Made by a program: the position numbers and the translations under genes. From assembly GCA_012837895.1 (NCBI GenBank), contig DUQH01000010.1, positions 1-64,000 of the forward strand: DNA of 64,000 nt, written 5' to 3'. The stretch comes from Candidatus Fermentithermobacillaceae bacterium. GTDB lineage: Bacteria > Bacillota > Sulfobacillia > Fermentithermobacillales > Fermentithermobacillaceae. Below the pieces are notes generated by a model, which saw only the letters and a list, made by a program, of their open reading frames with translations, searched no databases and was not told the DNA's origin. This document shows positions 1,799 through 61,767 of this stretch, piece by piece. The first letter of the stretch is position 1, and every line of letters starts with the position of its first letter.

Positions 1799-2290
1799 TT
1801 AAGACTCCTCCCTTGCCCTGACGCATTCAATAGCTTCCTTGCCTGTCATATGTTCGATATCAACCGCAATGATATACGCCCGGTCGCATGTGTCAATCAT
1901 TTCTTGTTTAGCCTCTTCAGGCTGATCTCCTGAATACTTCTCAACTAAAGCCTCAAAAGCTTCCCGGTATTCGTTGCCTTCTGCTATCCTTGCTTTACCA
2001 AAGGCAATAACGCTACGGAAATAAGAAGTGTATTCCCCGCTAACAATCGTATCTTCGTCTATTACACAAAAACAAACCTTTGGATTCTTGTTGACAGCAT
2101 CGAGCTTATGTCCTGCTTTTGCTGAATGGAAATAGATCTTCCCATCATAGTACACATAATTGAGAGGAACCGCATAAGGATAGCCTCCATCACCCATGCA
2201 AGCCAAGACGCCATTGCTGCATCTATGCATCACAGCCTCGGTCTCTTCCATGGGTAATAATTGCTTCATTCTCCTCATCTCTCTGAACAT
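1799..2290 (-). CDS. Pyridoxamine 5'-phosphate oxidase-like (NimA-type) flavin split-barrel protein
   Basis: This 163-residue protein matches the FMN-binding split-barrel family that includes nitroimidazole-resistance NimA and many uncharacterised flavin or F420 oxidoreductases. Visible family features are the N-terminal MEETEAVMHRCSNGVLACMG strand region, the core YPYAVPLNYVYYDGKIYFHS, and the AGHKLDAVNKNPKVCFCV segment that follows. The ATG at 2290 is preferred to an upstream start because GAAGGAGTGG precedes it at good spacing. It is the last member of the riboswitch-led group oadB-like, oadG-like, FxsA-like; the gap to the preceding stop is only 17 bases, so it is probably cotranscribed. 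Substrate and cofactor cannot be read from the sequence. Confidence 0.85.
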   Translation of the reverse strand: MFREMRRMKQLLPMEETEAVMHRCSNGVLACMGDGGYPYAVPLNYVYYDGKIYFHSAKAGHKLDAVNKNPKVCFCVIDEDTIVSGEYTSYFRSVIAFGKARIAEGNEYREAFEALVEKYSGDQPEEAKQEMIDTCDRAYIIAVDIEHMTGKEAIECVRAREES

Positions 2291-2307
2291 TGCCGGCTTC
2301 CACTCCT

Positions 2308-2457
2308 TCAAATATCTATGAAGATATACCGCTCTATCCACCGTATCACGGCGCTTCTCAAAAGCAACCTTGTAACCGGAAACAGCAATATGAATCCTAT
2401 TGCATCTGAAATCAGCCCACGGAACAGAAGCAACACTGCTCCAATCTCGATAAGCAA
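2308..2457 (-). CDS. FxsA-like C-terminal fragment (small membrane peptide or remnant)
   Basis: A short reading frame whose translation, LIEIGAVLLLFRGLISDAIG followed by FILLFPVTRLLLRS, closely resembles the conserved C-terminal membrane segment of FxsA proteins (G-x-LL-x-PG-x-x-TD-x-x-G-x-LLL-x-P-x-R). The usual Pro of the PG pair is Arg here. The frame is open upstream to a TAA at 2599-2601 but has no ATG or GTG. The only standard candidate start is TTG at 2457, six bases after the oadG-like stop, which would allow coupled translation of a 49-residue peptide. The N-terminal half of FxsA is missing. It could be a truncated working gene, a decayed remnant or a chance match; the motif similarity is what favours reporting it. 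Confidence 0.4.
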   Translation of the reverse strand: MLIEIGAVLLLFRGLISDAIGFILLFPVTRLLLRSAVIRWIERYIFIDI

Positions 2458-2462
2458 GTCAT

Positions 2463-2579
2463 CTAATTTCGCTCTGTGTTCATCAATATCCTGATCACCG
2501 CATACAGCCCTGCCATCATTATGAAGATAGTCGCCATAGACACGCCGGTAATCCGCAGCGTCTCCCTCAGTACATCCAC
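2463..2579 (-). CDS. OadG-like gamma subunit of a Na+-pumping decarboxylase (38 aa)
   Basis: A tiny gene starting at GTG 2579, with a near-perfect ribosome binding site AGGAGGG six bases upstream. It encodes 38 residues: a short amphipathic start (VDVLRETLRITGVSMA), one transmembrane helix (TIFIMMAGLYAVIRIL) and a charged tail. This is the layout of OadG/MmdD-type gamma chains, which are single-pass membrane peptides that hold decarboxylase complexes together. It lies 49 bases downstream of the beta-subunit-like gene in the same direction. Family gamma subunits are usually longer with a periplasmic or cytoplasmic tail, so this is a minimal version. The call rests on position plus the helix pattern. 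Confidence 0.65.
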   Translation of the reverse strand: MDVLRETLRITGVSMATIFIMMAGLYAVIRILMNTERN

Positions 2580-2628
2580 TGAAAACCCTCCTCGCTCCTT
2601 AGAATGCGTGTGAAATCCTCCCAGTATC

Positions 2629-3732
2629 TCATTTCACCAGGGCAAGAATAAGCGCCCCGGCGATTACAGAAGCAATCTGTCCGGCTACGTTTGCACCTAC
2701 TGCCTGCATCAAGATGAAGTTGCACGGGTCTTCCTGTTGAGCCATCTTCTGCACCACACGGGCAGACATGGGGAACGCAGATATCCCGCATGCGCCAATC
2801 ATCGGATTGATCTTGTTCTTCAGGAACAAGTTCAATACCTTCGCAAAGAGCACCCCACCCGCTGTATCGAAAACAAACGCCAAGAGCCCCATGCCGATGA
2901 TAATGAGAGTTCTGGAATGCAAGAAATCAGAAGCGGCCATGGTTGACCCGATAGTGATTCCCAGCAGCAAAGAGACGAGGTTCGTAAGTTCATTCTGGGC
3001 TGCCTTGGAAAGCCTGTCGAGAACGCCGCACTCGCGGATCAGGTTGCCAAACATCAAAGAGCCGACCAGGGCAAGGCTTATGGGAGCGACCAAGCCGGCG
3101 ACAACTGTGATTACCAGGGGAAACAGTATCCTGGTGGTCTTGGACACTTCCTTGGCCGAAGACACAGGCATGCAAATCCGGCGCTCTTCAGGAGTAGTGA
3201 GCGCCCTTATCACTGGCGGCTGGATTATGGGAACCAGCGCCATGTAAGAGTAAGCTGCCACAGAAATCGGGCCCAACAGGTTACGCGCAAACTTGGTGGC
3301 TACGTAAATGGAAGTAGGCCCGTCTGCCGCTCCTATGATTCCTATGGCTGCAGATTCCTTGAGGCTGAACCCGGCCAGCCCTGCCATGGCCATGGTCAGG
3401 AAGATACCGAGTTGAGCCGCTGCCCCAAAGAACAGCATGGCAGGCTGCTGCAGAAGCGGCCCGAAGTCGATCATTGCACCGACCCCGATGAAGATCAAAA
3501 TAGGAAACAATTCGGTTATGATTCCCGCGTCGTAAAGAATGGTAAGGAACCCCCCAGGCCCTACTGCTGATGAACCTGGGATATTGGTTAGGATCGCGCC
3601 AAACCCTATAGGCAAGAGAAGTACTGGTTCATATTCCTTGACGATAGCCAGGTAAATTAGGCCGAAACCGACACCGATCATTACAGCTTGCTGCCATGTC
3701 ATAGCTAGCAGCCCGTAAAGCAAACCGTCCAC
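2629..3732 (-). CDS. Na+-translocating decarboxylase beta subunit (OadB/GcdB/MmdB family)
   Basis: A 367-residue polytopic membrane protein. Family hallmarks are visible: GAMIDFGPLL, the IGIIGAADGPTSIYVATKFA segment (the conserved Asp and Gly of the Na+ and carboxybiotin site), GNLIRECGVLDRL, GITIGSTMAASDFL, and the C-terminal ISAFPMSARVVQKMAQQEDP. In characterised enzymes this subunit decarboxylates carboxybiotin and pumps Na+ outward. Start is GTG 3732, behind GGGAGGGG. No carboxyltransferase alpha subunit or biotin carrier gene is found in the window, so the partner, and therefore the acid decarboxylated (oxaloacetate, methylmalonyl-CoA, glutaconyl-CoA or malonate), is unknown. The gene sits directly behind a Mn2+-type riboswitch, which is unusual for this family. 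Confidence 0.93.
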   Translation of the reverse strand: MDGLLYGLLAMTWQQAVMIGVGFGLIYLAIVKEYEPVLLLPIGFGAILTNIPGSSAVGPGGFLTILYDAGIITELFPILIFIGVGAMIDFGPLLQQPAMLFFGAAAQLGIFLTMAMAGLAGFSLKESAAIGIIGAADGPTSIYVATKFARNLLGPISVAAYSYMALVPIIQPPVIRALTTPEERRICMPVSSAKEVSKTTRILFPLVITVVAGLVAPISLALVGSLMFGNLIRECGVLDRLSKAAQNELTNLVSLLLGITIGSTMAASDFLHSRTLIIIGMGLLAFVFDTAGGVLFAKVLNLFLKNKINPMIGACGISAFPMSARVVQKMAQQEDPCNFILMQAVGANVAGQIASVIAGALILALVK

Positions 3733-19806: not shown

Positions 19807-21378
19807 TTGCGTTCCAGGCAAGCTATGGTGGTTGAAACATCCAAGAACGGAATTACGGTGCTCACATCTGACGGGCAGTTCCTGTTCATCCCAATCAAGA
19901 ACAGCGTGTACATGGTTGGGGAACAGATCACTTTGCCCGACCTCACCGGTGCTTCAACCATGAGGAAGTGCACCCGCAGGCACACTTTTTCTCATTTCCT
20001 TAGAAGGCGGCTCCTACCCATCGCAGCAGTGGCTTCGCTGATCCTATGCGCCTCATTCTTCGGATATACGAAATACCTGGAAGCACGGCCATCAGTTGCG
20101 TGGGTAACAATAGACCTTGTTGATTCGCCTGGAAGCATGGAACTGGAAGTAAATGATAGGGGATTGATAAAATCAGTCACATACTTCGATGAAGAAAGCC
20201 AACGCCTGGCAAGTTCGCTCAACCTATATATGAAACCGGTAGATTACGCTGTGGAAGCCCTACTCAAGGACAAACAAGAATGCGGGCAGCCTGAAGTGGT
20301 AATCGGCATCATCCCTGTGGAAGAAGACCCCTCAGCAGAAGATCCTGCGCTGAACCGCCTGGAAGAAAAGATCCTTAAAGATGTGCAAAAAGCAGCGGAA
20401 AAAGCAGCCAAGAAGACGGCCAAGGCCGCCGAGAAAGCTGCCAAGGAAGCCGCCAAAGCAGTGGAAAAGGCACAGAAAGACGCTGAAAAGGCAGAAGGTT
20501 CTGATCCCAAGAGCCCCGGAACCAAGAAAGCCTTAAGTCCAGTGACCATCAATCACATCAGACTGGATAGGCAGACCCGGGACATCGCCAAGGAGCTGAA
20601 GGTTTCCGCTGCCCGGGCAATGCTTTGGGCGCTTTCCCATCATATCGACAATGCTGACCGGGAGCAAGATCTGATGCAGGCACCCGGGATTCACCAACAC
20701 GCAGTTCAAAGTGGAGATGATGACACGAGTCTTGAAGCTGCCTCTGGTTTAGCTGAAGAATCCCAAGTTCCAGTGGAGCCCGGCAACGGAAAGCCAGGTG
20801 GCGGCCAAACAGGTGGCGCAAACACAAAACAGCCTCCAGGACAATCCAAGGATGACACAAAGCCCAAGGCGCCGCCAGGACAGGCAAAGAAACAGGCAGA
20901 TTTCAGGTCCAGCATTCCCAAACTTGGCATTGAAAAAATAAAAGAACAGAGCAAGGAAATGGACAAACACTACCTGTCGGAACTTGCCAAGGAGTGGGCC
21001 GAAAAAGTTAAGGAAGCCCAGAAATCCAAGAATGGAGATAAGAAAAGCAATACTAAGGAGAACGACAAGCAGGGTGGCAAACCTTCTAGCAAACCTTTAG
21101 ACAACAAATCAGGCAGTTCTAGAGGCGACAACCAACCAACAAGCAAACCTTCAAACAACAAGCCGGACAATTCCAAGAGCAACAACCAACAACCGGGCAA
21201 ATCCTCTAACAACAAAGCACCTGGCAAGCCTTCAAACAACAAACCGGGTGATTCCAAGAGCAGTAACCAGCAAACAGGCAAGTCCTCTAATGACAAATCA
21301 AGCAAAACAAAACACAACTGGCCAACCTGGAAACCAAGAACCACTTGGCCGGGAACAACTATTCCCTGGGGCAAGTAG
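19807..21378 (+). CDS. rsgI: RsgI-type membrane anti-sigma factor
   Basis: A 523-residue anti-SigI protein. The N-terminal cytosolic RsgI domain (AMVVETSKNGITVLTSDGQF, residues 1-50) binds SigI. One transmembrane helix spans about 69-88 (LLPIAAVASLILCASFF). The conserved outer domain starts SVAWVTIDLVDSPGSMELEV, where family members usually read D-x-N-P-S; the Asn-Pro autocleavage pair is not present. An Ala/Lys-rich helix (about 190-230) follows. The C-terminal 110 residues are low-complexity (SSNNK, KPSNNKP repeats), with a Trp-rich end. No carbohydrate-binding domain is seen, unlike clostridial cellulolytic RsgI. Start TTG 19807 is best by position; ATG 19825 is the alternative. Confidence 0.88.
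   Translation: MRSRQAMVVETSKNGITVLTSDGQFLFIPIKNSVYMVGEQITLPDLTGASTMRKCTRRHTFSHFLRRRLLPIAAVASLILCASFFGYTKYLEARPSVAWVTIDLVDSPGSMELEVNDRGLIKSVTYFDEESQRLASSLNLYMKPVDYAVEALLKDKQECGQPEVVIGIIPVEEDPSAEDPALNRLEEKILKDVQKAAEKAAKKTAKAAEKAAKEAAKAVEKAQKDAEKAEGSDPKSPGTKKALSPVTINHIRLDRQTRDIAKELKVSAARAMLWALSHHIDNADREQDLMQAPGIHQHAVQSGDDDTSLEAASGLAEESQVPVEPGNGKPGGGQTGGANTKQPPGQSKDDTKPKAPPGQAKKQADFRSSIPKLGIEKIKEQSKEMDKHYLSELAKEWAEKVKEAQKSKNGDKKSNTKENDKQGGKPSSKPLDNKSGSSRGDNQPTSKPSNNKPDNSKSNNQQPGKSSNNKAPGKPSNNKPGDSKSSNQQTGKSSNDKSSKTKHNWPTWKPRTTWPGTTIPWGK
21085..21300 (+). repeat. Imperfect repeats in the rsgI 3' part
   Basis: Degenerate repeats of about 24-40 bp built on AAACCTTCAAACAACAAGCC and CAACCAACAACCGGGCAA-like units encode the Lys/Pro/Ser/Asn-rich tail (KPSNNKP, NNQQPGKSSNNK). 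They are in frame with no breaks, so repeat-number change would alter tail length only. Confidence 0.7.
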
Positions 21379-49003: not shown

Positions 49004-49678
49004 TTGGCAAACTGTGTAAAGTGCGGAGCATCAAACCTTGGAATGGGTCGCACCGACTTGGTTATCGTAGACGAAACATGGTACTGCAGCAGATGCCTAA
49101 AGTCGACACTAGGAACTGTATCGTGTAGCAAATGCGGTAACCAGCCATTCCGGTCAGGCGAGCACTTCAAGACCATCAACGGAGAAGTGCTTTGTACTGA
49201 CTGCATGGAAAAACAGGGGATAATGAAAAAATACGACTACGTTATGTCGTCAGTGATGTCCAGGCCAAGAGCTGCCAGAACCACACAAGCGCCTCGAGGC
49301 CTTGCGGCCCTTGGTACGATGAAAGATCTCTTAGAACAAAACCTGGAGCCAGGAGAAGAGGTAGAAGTGGCAGTGCTTGGAAATACAGGGGAAGCCCTGG
49401 CATGTTCGTCTAAGCACCTGTTCATTTTGAAGGCGGGGATGGCTTCAGGTTCCCTTACAGGCAGGAAGTGCATTAAGTACCGGTGGAACCAGATCACAGG
49501 GGCGGAGATCAAAGCGGGAGCGCTATACGGCCTGATCGAAATCCAGGGAAACGGGCTCCCGTCACATGATGCCAGAAACATAAGCCAGGTAAAGCAAGCT
49601 GAAAATGCAGTAACATTCCTTATTGCAAAGCAAGGTGAATTCGAAGACGCCTTGAGCACCATAAAGCAGTACATCTGA
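49004..49678 (+). CDS. LIM-like zinc-finger protein with C-terminal PH-like domain
   Basis: A 224-residue protein with two parts. Residues 1-70 carry four CxxC knuckles: NCVKCGAS, WYCSRCLK, VSCSKCGNQ and LCTDCMEK, a double treble-clef arrangement reminiscent of LIM domains. Residues about 105-224 resemble bacterial PH or YokE-like domains: LEPGEEVEVAVLGNTGEALA, KHLFILKAGMASG, KCIKYRWNQITGAEIKAGA. The start is TTG 49004 with GGGAGG at eight bases. No catalytic site is seen. It may recognise proteins or lipids. The ChlI-like gene follows on the same strand after a hairpin. Confidence 0.75.
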   Translation: MANCVKCGASNLGMGRTDLVIVDETWYCSRCLKSTLGTVSCSKCGNQPFRSGEHFKTINGEVLCTDCMEKQGIMKKYDYVMSSVMSRPRAARTTQAPRGLAALGTMKDLLEQNLEPGEEVEVAVLGNTGEALACSSKHLFILKAGMASGSLTGRKCIKYRWNQITGAEIKAGALYGLIEIQGNGLPSHDARNISQVKQAENAVTFLIAKQGEFEDALSTIKQYI

Positions 49679-49746
49679 GGTTATAACCCTTGAATGGAAA
49701 ATTGCAGCCCGGATGCCATTAGTTCCATAACTTGTCCGGAAAGAAA

Positions 49747-49780
49747 CCTCCTGTGTGACGGGCAAAATACCCGCAGGAGG
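49747..49780 (+). promoter_or_regulatory. Hairpin sequestering the ribosome binding site of the ChlI-like gene
   Basis: CCTCCTG (49747-49753) pairs with CAGGAGG (49774-49780), with an inner CGGG/CCCG stem and a TGTGA bulge. The 3' arm is itself the Shine-Dalgarno sequence for the TTG start at 49789. The stem could act as a translation switch, or partly as a terminator for the gene upstream. Confidence 0.6.
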
Positions 49781-49788
49781 GTTCTTAC

Positions 49789-51420
49789 TTGTACACCAGC
49801 ACACCTATCAGGCATCAGGGAAATGAGAGCTTGTTTCTTGCCTTAGAAATGTCGCTCATATGCACGGCAGCTGGAATTCCCCTGCACGTCCATGCAGAGG
49901 GGCTCAGGGGGACGGGGAAAACCACTGTTATGCGCTGGGCCAGGCAGATAGCACCTAAAATCACCCGCTTAAGGGGGTGCGTTTACCAGTGCAGGCCGGA
50001 CCTACCCCATTGCCCAGACCATTCAGAATCCACCTCTTTAAGCCATAATGAAACTGAAAGCGTATCCATGCCCTTCATCGAGATTGGCCACGGGGCAAAG
50101 CTAGGGACTATCCTGGGAAGCGTAGACCTTGCCAGGTTAACTGATCCCAGGGGCCCCAAGGCTGCGCTCCTTCCCGGAGCTATACCGATGGCAAACAGGG
50201 GGATTGTGTTCATTGATGAGATAAACAGGCTTGCAGAAACGGCACCTGAAATAACCGACGTGCTGCTCTCAGTCATGGGAACCAAACCGGGCAAGATCAA
50301 GGTCGAAGAAGTGGGGCTTGAGCCGTGCGAAATACAGGTGAATTCATCAGTGTGGGCTACGTCCAATCCCGATGAAGACCCTGGCCCGCTGGAAGAGATC
50401 AGGCGGCAATTGTCTGACAGGTTCGATATGGTAGTGCCCGTTCACAGGCCATCAGACCCCCGTGTGGTGCAGGAGCTTCTGTTGAGCAAACACCGGACCG
50501 TCCCAGTTCCTGAACGGGACCACAAGATTTCCGGAAGCATAGGGCAACAAGCCCTGAAGCTTTCCAAAGTGACTGTTCCCAAGGAAATCATAAAGTACAT
50601 CTCAAATCTGTACGTGGAATGCAACATTGAAAGCTTAAGGGCCATTGAATCCCTTGAGTTGACAGCCAGATGTCTTGCGGTGATGCGGGAAAAGCAGGAA
50701 GTGTCCCTGGATGAAATATCTACGGCAATGCCCATGGTCCTAAGGCACAGGACGGAACCTATGGTGCTTTCGGAAATCCTGAAGGACCTGGAACTACGGA
50801 AAGCTGCCGGCGCTGGAATCCGTGAAAAGCAGGAACAACAAAAGGGCGCCGGCGGAGTTAACATGCCACACCAGCCCAAATTGCAGCATCCGCCTGACGC
50901 GCCCACTGGTTCCAGGTCGCCTGAAAGCTCTGACGGGTGTGCGCCCAAAGATTGGGCTGGCAGTGAGGAGAAGGGTAAACACAGTTTGGCAGATCGGCCA
51001 CCCGTACCCAGACTGGCTTTTGAACCGCCGCGGCCAAACTACCTGTCAGATCGGCCAAAGGATCCTACAAGTTTGAACTTGCAGGGACGCAACGGCCAGA
51101 GACAAGTAGGCTGGCTTCAGAAGCTGCTGTCCCGGTACCACAAGGGCATGAACACTTCCGGTGCCATCAATTCCGGTACCATGCGAAGCAAAGGCCTTTC
51201 ACAGCAAAATGCAGTAAGCAACCGTTCTAACGCTTCTACCGGCGGAGAATGGGGTCATATGAAGCAAGAGGCACACGGGGCACCTAAATCAAACCAGCTT
51301 GGCCGCAATCATTTCGCCCCCTCATCTCCTGTGTCGCCTCCTGAAGCTGCACGGGCCATTTCTGAACTCAACTGGGAAGAAATCCTGTTGCCATTTGGGT
51401 GGAAGGGCCATAGGGAATGA
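49789..51420 (+). CDS. ChlI/BchI-like AAA+ ATPase
   Basis: A 543-residue AAA+ protein of the magnesium-chelatase ATPase type. Walker A GLRGTGKTTVMRWARQIA sits near residue 40, a Cys/His loop CVYQCRPDLPHC near 65, Walker B GIVFIDEINRLAE near 140, sensor SSVWATSNPDEDPG and arginine-finger region LSDRFDMVVPV near 205. A helical lid follows to about 340. The last 200 residues are Pro/Ser/Gln-rich and look disordered. The start is TTG 49789 behind AGGAGGG. It overlaps the VWA gene by four bases (ATGA). No chlorophyll or B12 chelatase genes are near, so the substrate remodelled by this pair is unknown. Confidence 0.88.
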   Translation: MYTSTPIRHQGNESLFLALEMSLICTAAGIPLHVHAEGLRGTGKTTVMRWARQIAPKITRLRGCVYQCRPDLPHCPDHSESTSLSHNETESVSMPFIEIGHGAKLGTILGSVDLARLTDPRGPKAALLPGAIPMANRGIVFIDEINRLAETAPEITDVLLSVMGTKPGKIKVEEVGLEPCEIQVNSSVWATSNPDEDPGPLEEIRRQLSDRFDMVVPVHRPSDPRVVQELLLSKHRTVPVPERDHKISGSIGQQALKLSKVTVPKEIIKYISNLYVECNIESLRAIESLELTARCLAVMREKQEVSLDEISTAMPMVLRHRTEPMVLSEILKDLELRKAAGAGIREKQEQQKGAGGVNMPHQPKLQHPPDAPTGSRSPESSDGCAPKDWAGSEEKGKHSLADRPPVPRLAFEPPRPNYLSDRPKDPTSLNLQGRNGQRQVGWLQKLLSRYHKGMNTSGAINSGTMRSKGLSQQNAVSNRSNASTGGEWGHMKQEAHGAPKSNQLGRNHFAPSSPVSPPEAARAISELNWEEILLPFGWKGHRE

Positions 51421-53126
51421 TCTTCTTTCCAAAGGGCGCTTGTCCCGGACAAAAAAGCGCAATCAGGCGCCTTCATGAATTGATGAACATACCTGTTCCT
51501 GTGCGCGTGGGTGAGACCGCAGTAGTGTCAACCAAAGTACACCTACAGGATCCTGCCCTGCCCGATAAGATTACCGCGGTGATGAACTCTGATGCCGGCC
51601 AGGTGTTTTATCACAGGAATGCCCAAAACGAAGTAATCCACATCGATGTGTTTCATTCTGAAGGCAGAATAAAGCCTGAGGATGTAGCCCGTTCAATAGT
51701 AGATGCAGTGTCGCGCACTAATTTGGAAACAATTGACGGCATCCCCGGCCCCTCGCTCATACCTTTCCTTCCCTACATCGACATTCAGACTGCAGTTGGA
51801 GGCGGCAGGGTTGACGGACCCCTCCTCTATGGACGTGAAGCAGGCGTGAGGCAGGCACATGTAACCCACGTTCACCTGGCCATTCTCAACGTGCATGTAC
51901 TGGTATCTTCCATTTTCGTCATTGTCGGGTCAGTGGAAGCTGCGATACAAAACGCAGGTTTAGAGCTGAGGAAGATAAGCTATGTAGCTGCGGAATCAGG
52001 TAGCGCACCAATGGACCTAGGGGACTACAGGACACTCACCGACTCGCTTCTCAAACAATCAGGCAGGGACCCCCTGACAAACACAACTCCGGCCTTGTCG
52101 TGGTACAGGGCTGAAGCCCTTGCCAGGCAGGCGGCCCAGGTGATCGGCACCACCGGCGACGCACTGGACCTTTTGCAAGCCCTGTCTGCCGGGATGCATC
52201 CCGACGAGCTCACAAGGTTCAGGGGTCCCAAGGGCCGGAAAACCGGTGAAATCCGCCAGGCGCTCATGAAGTCTGACCTGATTCAGTTGGACTGTCACCA
52301 ATACAAGCTTACCCCCCAGGGGGAAATGGCCCTGGACCACCTGCGGCGCCATAGTTCAGAAATAGAAGCTTATCTCAGGCGGCTGCTGTGGTCGCTGCCT
52401 GCTGCCAACATACCCGCGCCTGAAAGGAAGGGTACCACCCTCAAGCCAGGCAATGCAAGATCAAGGGGATATGCCCTGCCAAAAGAGCGAGGCGACATAG
52501 CAGGCCATCTGGCCGTAGCTGAAAGCATAATAGCCAAAGGCACAACCCGTGGTCCTTTGAAACCCTCCCACCTCCGGTTCTGGTATACCCGCGGGATAAA
52601 GTCCAGGCCTGTGGTGCTGCTGCTTGATGCGTCAGCATCCATGGCGGGAAAGCGCATGGCGGCGGCAAAAGAGTTTGCCAGGCACCTAATAATCACAAGC
52701 AAGGAAAAAGTATGCGTGGTCGTGTTTCAAGACTCAATGGTGGAAGTGATATGCGATTTCACCAAGAACCCACGCACGCTTGAAGCAGGGCTTGCCCGTA
52801 TACGGGCTGAAGGGCTTACGCCCCTAGCCAAAGGTTTGGAGAAGGTCGGTGAGCTTTGCCGGGGCAAAATCAACAAGCCACTAGTACTGTGTGTTACAGA
52901 CGGAATCCCGACTGTGCCTTACAGGACCCTTTCCCCCATTGAAGACGCAATATCCGCCGCGAAAAAGCTGGCAAGACAAGGCATACACATAGGTTGCATA
53001 GGACTTGAGCCGAACCACAGTTTCCTTAGGCAGATGATGCAGGCAGCTAAGGGATCTTTGTATATAGTTGACGAACTTGAAGCATCCACAATGGCAGCTA
53101 TAGCCCGCAAAGAACAAAGCGGATGA
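51417..53126 (+). CDS. VWA-domain protein (ChlD/BchD-like), partner of the AAA+ ATPase
   Basis: A 569-residue protein. The C-terminal von Willebrand A domain (about 400-560) has the metal site LLLDASASMAGKRM (D-x-S-x-S), the Thr in EGLTPLAKGLEKV and Asp in LCVTDGIPTVP. The N-terminal 300 residues are not recognised; a winged-helix-like stretch (LDLLQALSAGMHPDELTRF then KLTPQGEMALDHL) is near 245-305. The four-base overlap with the ChlI-like gene implies a fixed ratio. By analogy with MoxR/VWA and chelatase I/D pairs, it would couple ATPase motor work to an unknown client, for example a metal insertion. Confidence 0.87.
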   Translation: MIFFPKGACPGQKSAIRRLHELMNIPVPVRVGETAVVSTKVHLQDPALPDKITAVMNSDAGQVFYHRNAQNEVIHIDVFHSEGRIKPEDVARSIVDAVSRTNLETIDGIPGPSLIPFLPYIDIQTAVGGGRVDGPLLYGREAGVRQAHVTHVHLAILNVHVLVSSIFVIVGSVEAAIQNAGLELRKISYVAAESGSAPMDLGDYRTLTDSLLKQSGRDPLTNTTPALSWYRAEALARQAAQVIGTTGDALDLLQALSAGMHPDELTRFRGPKGRKTGEIRQALMKSDLIQLDCHQYKLTPQGEMALDHLRRHSSEIEAYLRRLLWSLPAANIPAPERKGTTLKPGNARSRGYALPKERGDIAGHLAVAESIIAKGTTRGPLKPSHLRFWYTRGIKSRPVVLLLDASASMAGKRMAAAKEFARHLIITSKEKVCVVVFQDSMVEVICDFTKNPRTLEAGLARIRAEGLTPLAKGLEKVGELCRGKINKPLVLCVTDGIPTVPYRTLSPIEDAISAAKKLARQGIHIGCIGLEPNHSFLRQMMQAAKGSLYIVDELEASTMAAIARKEQSG

Positions 53127-61268: not shown

Positions 61269-61362
61269 TGTACTCTCTCCTTAGTGTCCGGCTAACACGG
61301 AACACCTTTGAGGGGGTTGTAGCGTTCTCCGGGTTAGACTGGCCGAAGAGTGTTCAAAGAAA

Positions 61363-61767
61363 TGGCAAGCAGGCCTGTAAGCCGGGTTCTGTCGAGGGTA
61401 GTCATCTATCTGGGAGAAAGGTTACCCTTTCCCTCAAGCGGCCATACCCAGGGGCTCAGCGGGCAACGTCATCGCCCCTCTATTCGGCCTTGCTCCGGGC
61501 GGGGTTTGCCTGGCCAGCCGGTCACCCGACTGCCGGTAGTCTCTTACACTACCATTTCACCCTTACCCCTGTCCGCCGTTTCCAGCCCTGGTTACCTAGA
61601 GGCTGGGCATGCCTCTGGTAAGGCAGGAACCACGTGACAGTGGCGGTATGTTTCTGTGGCACTTTCCCTAAGGTCACCCTTGCTGGGCGTTACCCAGCGC
61701 CCTGCCCTGTGGAGCCCGGACTTTCCTCAGGCAGCTTAAGGCCGCCCGCGACTACCTAGCCTGCTTA
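61363..61767 (-). ncRNA. rnpB: RNase P RNA (class A)
   Basis: The catalytic RNA that matures the 5' ends of tRNAs. The minus strand starts AAGCAGGCTAGGTAGTCGCG and ends ACAGAACCCGGCTTA (complement of 61378-61392), then GCCTGCTT, which pairs with the 5' end as P1. The universal P4 core GAGGAAAGTCCGGGCTCC is the complement of 61711-61728. The length of about 405 bases and the layout fit bacterial type A. A strong promoter lies just upstream. Exact ends are estimated to within a few bases. Confidence 0.97.

Follow-up and report, generated by a model that had tools for sequence, protein, structure and literature searches.

The sequence analysed here derives from Candidatus Fermentithermobacillaceae (Bacillota; assembly GCA_012837895.1, contig DUQH01000010.1) and comprises 64,000 nt of the forward strand, referred to below as the window. 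On the + strand, an open reading frame for a CxxC zinc-ribbon-like protein (49004-49678) is followed in the same direction by the gene for an AAA+ ATPase of 543 amino acids with a TTG start codon (49789-51420) and by the gene for a VWA protein of 569 amino acids (51417-53126). The Shine-Dalgarno (SD) sequence of the AAA+ gene, AGGAGG (49775-49780, +), is located 8 nt ahead of the TTG codon, inside the 3' arm of a hairpin. The 5' (anti-SD) arm is AAGAAACCTCCTG (49741-49753, +) and the 3' arm is CAGGAGGGTTCTT (49774-49786, +), and the stem contains 12 pairs and one mismatch. The folding z-score was -1.98 over 66 nt and -0.87 over 150 nt, which is only moderately unusual when judged from the window alone. 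The bare motif CCTCC-N14-34-GGAGG showed no excess genome-wide (49 occurrences versus 47 in the reversed control), and no second case with a clear -10 element in the loop was seen in the genome-wide CCTCC-N-GGAGG hairpin search. Elsewhere in the window, an RsgI-type anti-sigma factor-like gene with a low-complexity, repeat-rich stretch and strong AT skew was found at 20000-21300, and a bacterial RNase P RNA of class A at 61362-61767 on the - strand.

The two proteins were assigned from profile, domain and fold matches. The AAA+ protein consists of a ChlI/BchI-like core and a disordered tail. BchI/ChlI is the closest fold to the core (Foldseek match to 1g8p, E = 6e-19), in keeping with the PDB profile matches, and the pLDDT is under 50 for most of residues 359-509. 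A Cys3-His loop (C64, C68, C75 and H78; 49978-50022, +), invariant in 38 orthologues, is a probable zinc site. The VWA protein was divided into an N-terminal domain (residues 1-195), a winged-helix-like segment (225-325) and the VWA domain (395-569), in which the MIDAS motif is complete (D404, S406, S408, T468 and D495). Many conserved histidines are present in the N-terminal domain, for which no Pfam match was obtained; a fold search with the model of the whole VWA protein returned VWA matches only. AAA+ and VWA modules, a Cys/His loop and a disordered tail had been read from the sequence in a preliminary description, which proposed an uncharacterised chelatase-like machine. Each of these features was borne out, and the pair falls outside the curated chelatase families. 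Scores were 128 bits against a cut-off of 779 for TIGR02442 and 86 bits against 467 for TIGR02030. No AAA family occurs among the Pfam matches of the VWA protein in the 40 members listed, and the CobN/ChlH large subunit (PF02514) is absent from the genome, which is 96% complete. Identity with magnesium chelatase was rejected on the basis of the curated scores, the architecture of the D subunit and the missing large subunit.

The loop of the hairpin carries the sequence GGGCAAAATA (49760-49769, +), which fits the pattern GGNNANAMTR; this pattern we take to be the -10 consensus of sigma-F. It was present in 32 of 45 orthologous AAA leaders, covering 16 of 24 bacterial families. The same pattern was found in a mean of 1.07 shuffled leaders (maximum 5) and in 30 of the 589 other long open reading frames of the same loci (p = 2e-26 for the latter comparison). 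Outside the class, the strict pattern was present in only 6 of 20 leaders. As the pattern was written down after the leaders had been viewed, the spacing of the -35 element matters as a separate check. A GYATA-like -35 element was scored at every spacing in 18 families; the score peaked at 14-16 bp, with a mean best match of 3.0 of 5 bases versus about 2.1 of 5 at other spacings. The candidate -35 element of the window is weak (49739-49744, +; GAAAG with a spacing of 16 or AAAGA with a spacing of 15), about 2 of 5 bases matching. The spoIIR leaders, in which the pattern was found in 5 of 30 cases, were uninformative as a promoter control because spoIIR directly follows sigG. In Clostridioides difficile, a G upstream of the -10 element marks sigma-F promoters and an A downstream of it marks sigma-G promoters (PMC3789822). 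Both marks are present in the window. The promoter of the AAA+/VWA operon would, on these sequence features, depend on sigma-F or on sigma-F/G. In three leaders of the window's family (L031, L032 and L034) a second sequence resembling a -10 element, for example GAGAACAATA, precedes the 5' arm, some 60 nt ahead of the start of the AAA gene.

Transcription is predicted to start 5-8 nt past the -10 element, at 49774-49777 (+), which would give the operon mRNA a leader of about 14 nt. The 5' arm overlaps the -35/spacer region of this putative promoter. Since the predicted start is at the SD sequence and past the 5' arm, the operon's own mRNA would be unable to fold the stem, and the hairpin is expected only in RNA that reads through from upstream. 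The predicted cost of opening the SD sequence in the window was 13.3 kcal/mol in the read-through RNA versus 2.6 kcal/mol from the predicted start. For the ten members of the window's family the corresponding ranges were 7.8-18.4 and 2.1-6.8 kcal/mol. A longer RNA, which offers more pairing partners, also raises this cost in other families, by a few kcal/mol. The zinc-ribbon-like gene is found directly upstream and in the same direction in most loci of the family. The hairpin probably only silences transcripts leaking from this gene.

The stem is kept in ten of the ten leaders of the family (the window and L026-L034), with the SD sequence in its 3' arm and the -10 element straddled in every case; three leaders of a second family show the same arrangement weakly. 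In L030 a T-A pair is replaced by C-G and an A-T pair by G-C, and L026-L028 use U-G pairs at stem positions. In nine leaders, 86.1% of the cells in the stem columns were paired, versus 51-63% when the arms were slid by one to three columns. Only three two-sided changes were counted, a number reached in 45 of 500 shuffles. Covariation of the stem is modest, few sequences being available, and is suggestive rather than strong. The hairpin is significant because of its conservation across the family and not because of its folding signal in the window. Placement of the SD sequence in the stem, as first described, is upheld by sequence, folding and the relatives, and the comparison with relatives that had been proposed as a check showed pairing to be kept with few compensatory changes. 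A general SD-hiding hairpin in all families was considered and rejected, as no consistent excess of upstream anti-SD sequences was found in other families. Most orthologous leaders with the -10 element have no hairpin. The -10 element is thus widespread while the hairpin is mainly restricted to one family, which points to a promoter older than the hairpin; the latter is probably a later addition around it.

The reading that we favour, and consider reasonably likely, is that the locus is a forespore operon insulated from read-through transcription by an SD-hiding hairpin built around its own promoter. Computed support comes from the conserved stem, the -10 element, the -35 spacing, the association with sporulation genes described below and the protein folds. 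In the forespore, a promoter recognised by sigma-F (or sigma-F/G), with its -10 element in the hairpin loop, would drive the operon. The 5' end of these forespore transcripts would coincide with the SD sequence or lie immediately ahead of it; they would lack the 5' arm and be translated. Read-through from upstream, of which the zinc-ribbon-like gene is the presumed source, would carry both arms and hide the SD sequence, so that no protein would be made outside the forespore.

Alternatively, the hairpin could be the intrinsic terminator of the upstream gene, overlapping the SD sequence and providing transcriptional insulation, a function compatible with a translational block. The stem lies just past the end of the upstream gene, its arms follow an A-rich/GC/T-rich pattern, and in one subgroup of the family it is followed by TTTTGATTT, with a T-tract score of 3.67. 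However, the T-tract of the window is weak (score 1.67), a consensus scan of the + strand from the upstream gene to 49789 found no terminator, and the SD sequence is always in the 3' arm with the -10 element in the loop. We regard this explanation as unlikely. Less probable still is that the leader of the operon itself acts as an RNA switch responding to a ligand, a metal or temperature. Sequestration of the SD sequence is a usual output of such switches, members of the genus also share another conserved block upstream, and in the same subgroup transcription from the second, more upstream -10-like sequence would include the whole stem. Against this, the loop holds a -10 element of the forespore type, which is kept throughout the class, including families that have no hairpin, no conserved aptamer-like core was seen besides the promoter, and the leader gave no match in Rfam, which would not contain an undescribed RNA. 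A riboswitch was set aside as improbable on the Rfam result and on the promoter element in the loop. The preliminary description was right as to the hidden SD sequence, the conserved stem and the chelatase-like machine, but probably not as to an RNA-level switch. We give very little credence to a DNA operator for protein binding around the promoter: the repeat flanks the -10 element and compensatory changes would preserve a palindrome as well, but the arm-to-arm distance varies from 29 to 32 bp, which shifts the helical phase, the U-G pairs of L026-L028 keep RNA pairing while breaking DNA symmetry, and the SD logic is alike at sigG. If read-through insulation is correct, an apparent riboswitch becomes developmental gating, in which the hairpin would stop stray expression and the inner promoter would bypass the block.

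The link to sporulation was assessed from gene content in genomes that are mostly metagenome-assembled (MAGs). Of the relatives with spoIIR, 67 of 88 carried the AAA+/VWA pair, compared with 1 of 13 of those without spoIIR (p = 3e-6, in a test that ignores phylogeny); two genomes with marginal matches (G062 and G094, E about 1e-4) were not scored as carrying the pair. Across the phylum, the AAA gene was found in 88 of 248 genomes with sigG versus 4 of 51 without (p = 2.4e-5, phylogeny again being ignored). One genus of the window's family (g4) has neither the pair nor the sporulation marker, and many spore formers are without the pair. For G001, from the window's own genus, sporulation genes are present and no match to the VWA protein was found. 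In a distant subfamily (L181, L182, L184, L186 and L187) TGTCGAA, which matches the Spo0A box, occurs upstream of the AAA gene; a box-like site was found in 8 of 20 leaders, with 0.83 expected. Among the loci inspected elsewhere in the class, the pair is usually preceded by secD-secF and/or a cation transporter and followed by recJ, apt and relA. In L041, spoIIR and sigG (1887-3345) are about 3.4 kb from the pair. No sporulation link was reported for the pair within the papers that could be searched.

Judging from these associations, the pair is probably an unstudied machine, expressed in the forespore, that serves spore formation in bacteria. The two genes are common in anaerobic spore formers, where they are filed only as a 'putative chelatase', and they thereby become candidates for a forespore function. 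By analogy, and as speculation, the pair may work in a chelatase-like manner: an AAA+ ring, together with a VWA adaptor, would act on a client, and a metal might take part; the ChlI-like ring and the MIDAS-containing adaptor would then probably remodel or metal-load a client in the forespore. A broader proposal is held only tentatively and is, in our judgement, rather doubtful as a whole: that an unrecognised AAA+/VWA machine of the forespore, conserved in many lineages and bearing a so far undescribed His-rich N-terminal domain, metal-loads or remodels a spore protein, and that promoter-in-hairpin insulation operates family-wide at forespore genes beyond sigG.

Among known systems, magnesium chelatase (ChlI/ChlD) and cobaltochelatase resemble the pair in that the AAA+ core is closest to BchI/ChlI and the partner has a MIDAS-containing VWA domain. 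They differ in that the VWA protein of the pair has no AAA module, the genome lacks ChlH/CobN, and the pair has the Cys3-His loop, an N-terminal domain with no Pfam match and scores far below the curated cut-offs. NorQ/NorD and other MoxR-VWA pairs likewise combine an AAA+ ring with a VWA adaptor, and the NorD VWA domain is among the structural matches; however, the AAA+ core described here is nearer to ChlI than to MoxR, and no NorB-like client was seen near the pair. For the leader, a likeness is found in phage T4 genes expressed both early and late, such as gene e, in which the SD sequence is hidden in long early transcripts and free when transcription starts inside the hairpin. The inner promoter is a phage late promoter in T4, whereas a sporulation sigma factor would act here.

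The closest parallel is the sigG (spoIIIG) leader of Bacillus subtilis, in which a forespore promoter is enclosed by the two arms of a hairpin that hides the SD sequence; this hairpin is predicted to block translation of read-through RNA and cannot form from PsigG (PMC5942855). The gene, its upstream neighbour and the arm sequences are different from those of the AAA+/VWA operon. The sigG leaders of the window's family (nine genomes) typically contain, in order, GTATA, a spacer with ACCCCTGGT or ACCCCCGGT, and GGCAATACTT; ACCGGGGGG follows farther on, where the SD sequence lies. In this GTATA-N15/16-GGCAATACTT arrangement, CCCCTGGT of the spacer forms base pairs with the SD sequence, ACCGGGG. 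The predicted opening cost was 10.6-16.5 kcal/mol in read-through RNA versus 1.8-11.1 kcal/mol from the start, and the z-scores of the spacer/SD duplex were modest (-0.3 to -3.7). The gpr leaders of the same family (L210-L220) carry a conserved GGGTAGTATA element that is unlike the -10 element of the AAA+/VWA operon and is probably a sigma-G promoter of this family. In the AAA+/VWA leader the arms flank the -10 element, the 5' arm precedes the predicted start and the SD sequence is in the 3' arm. As sigG of B. subtilis and sigG of the window's family share this nested layout, the AAA+/VWA operon has the layout of a known device.
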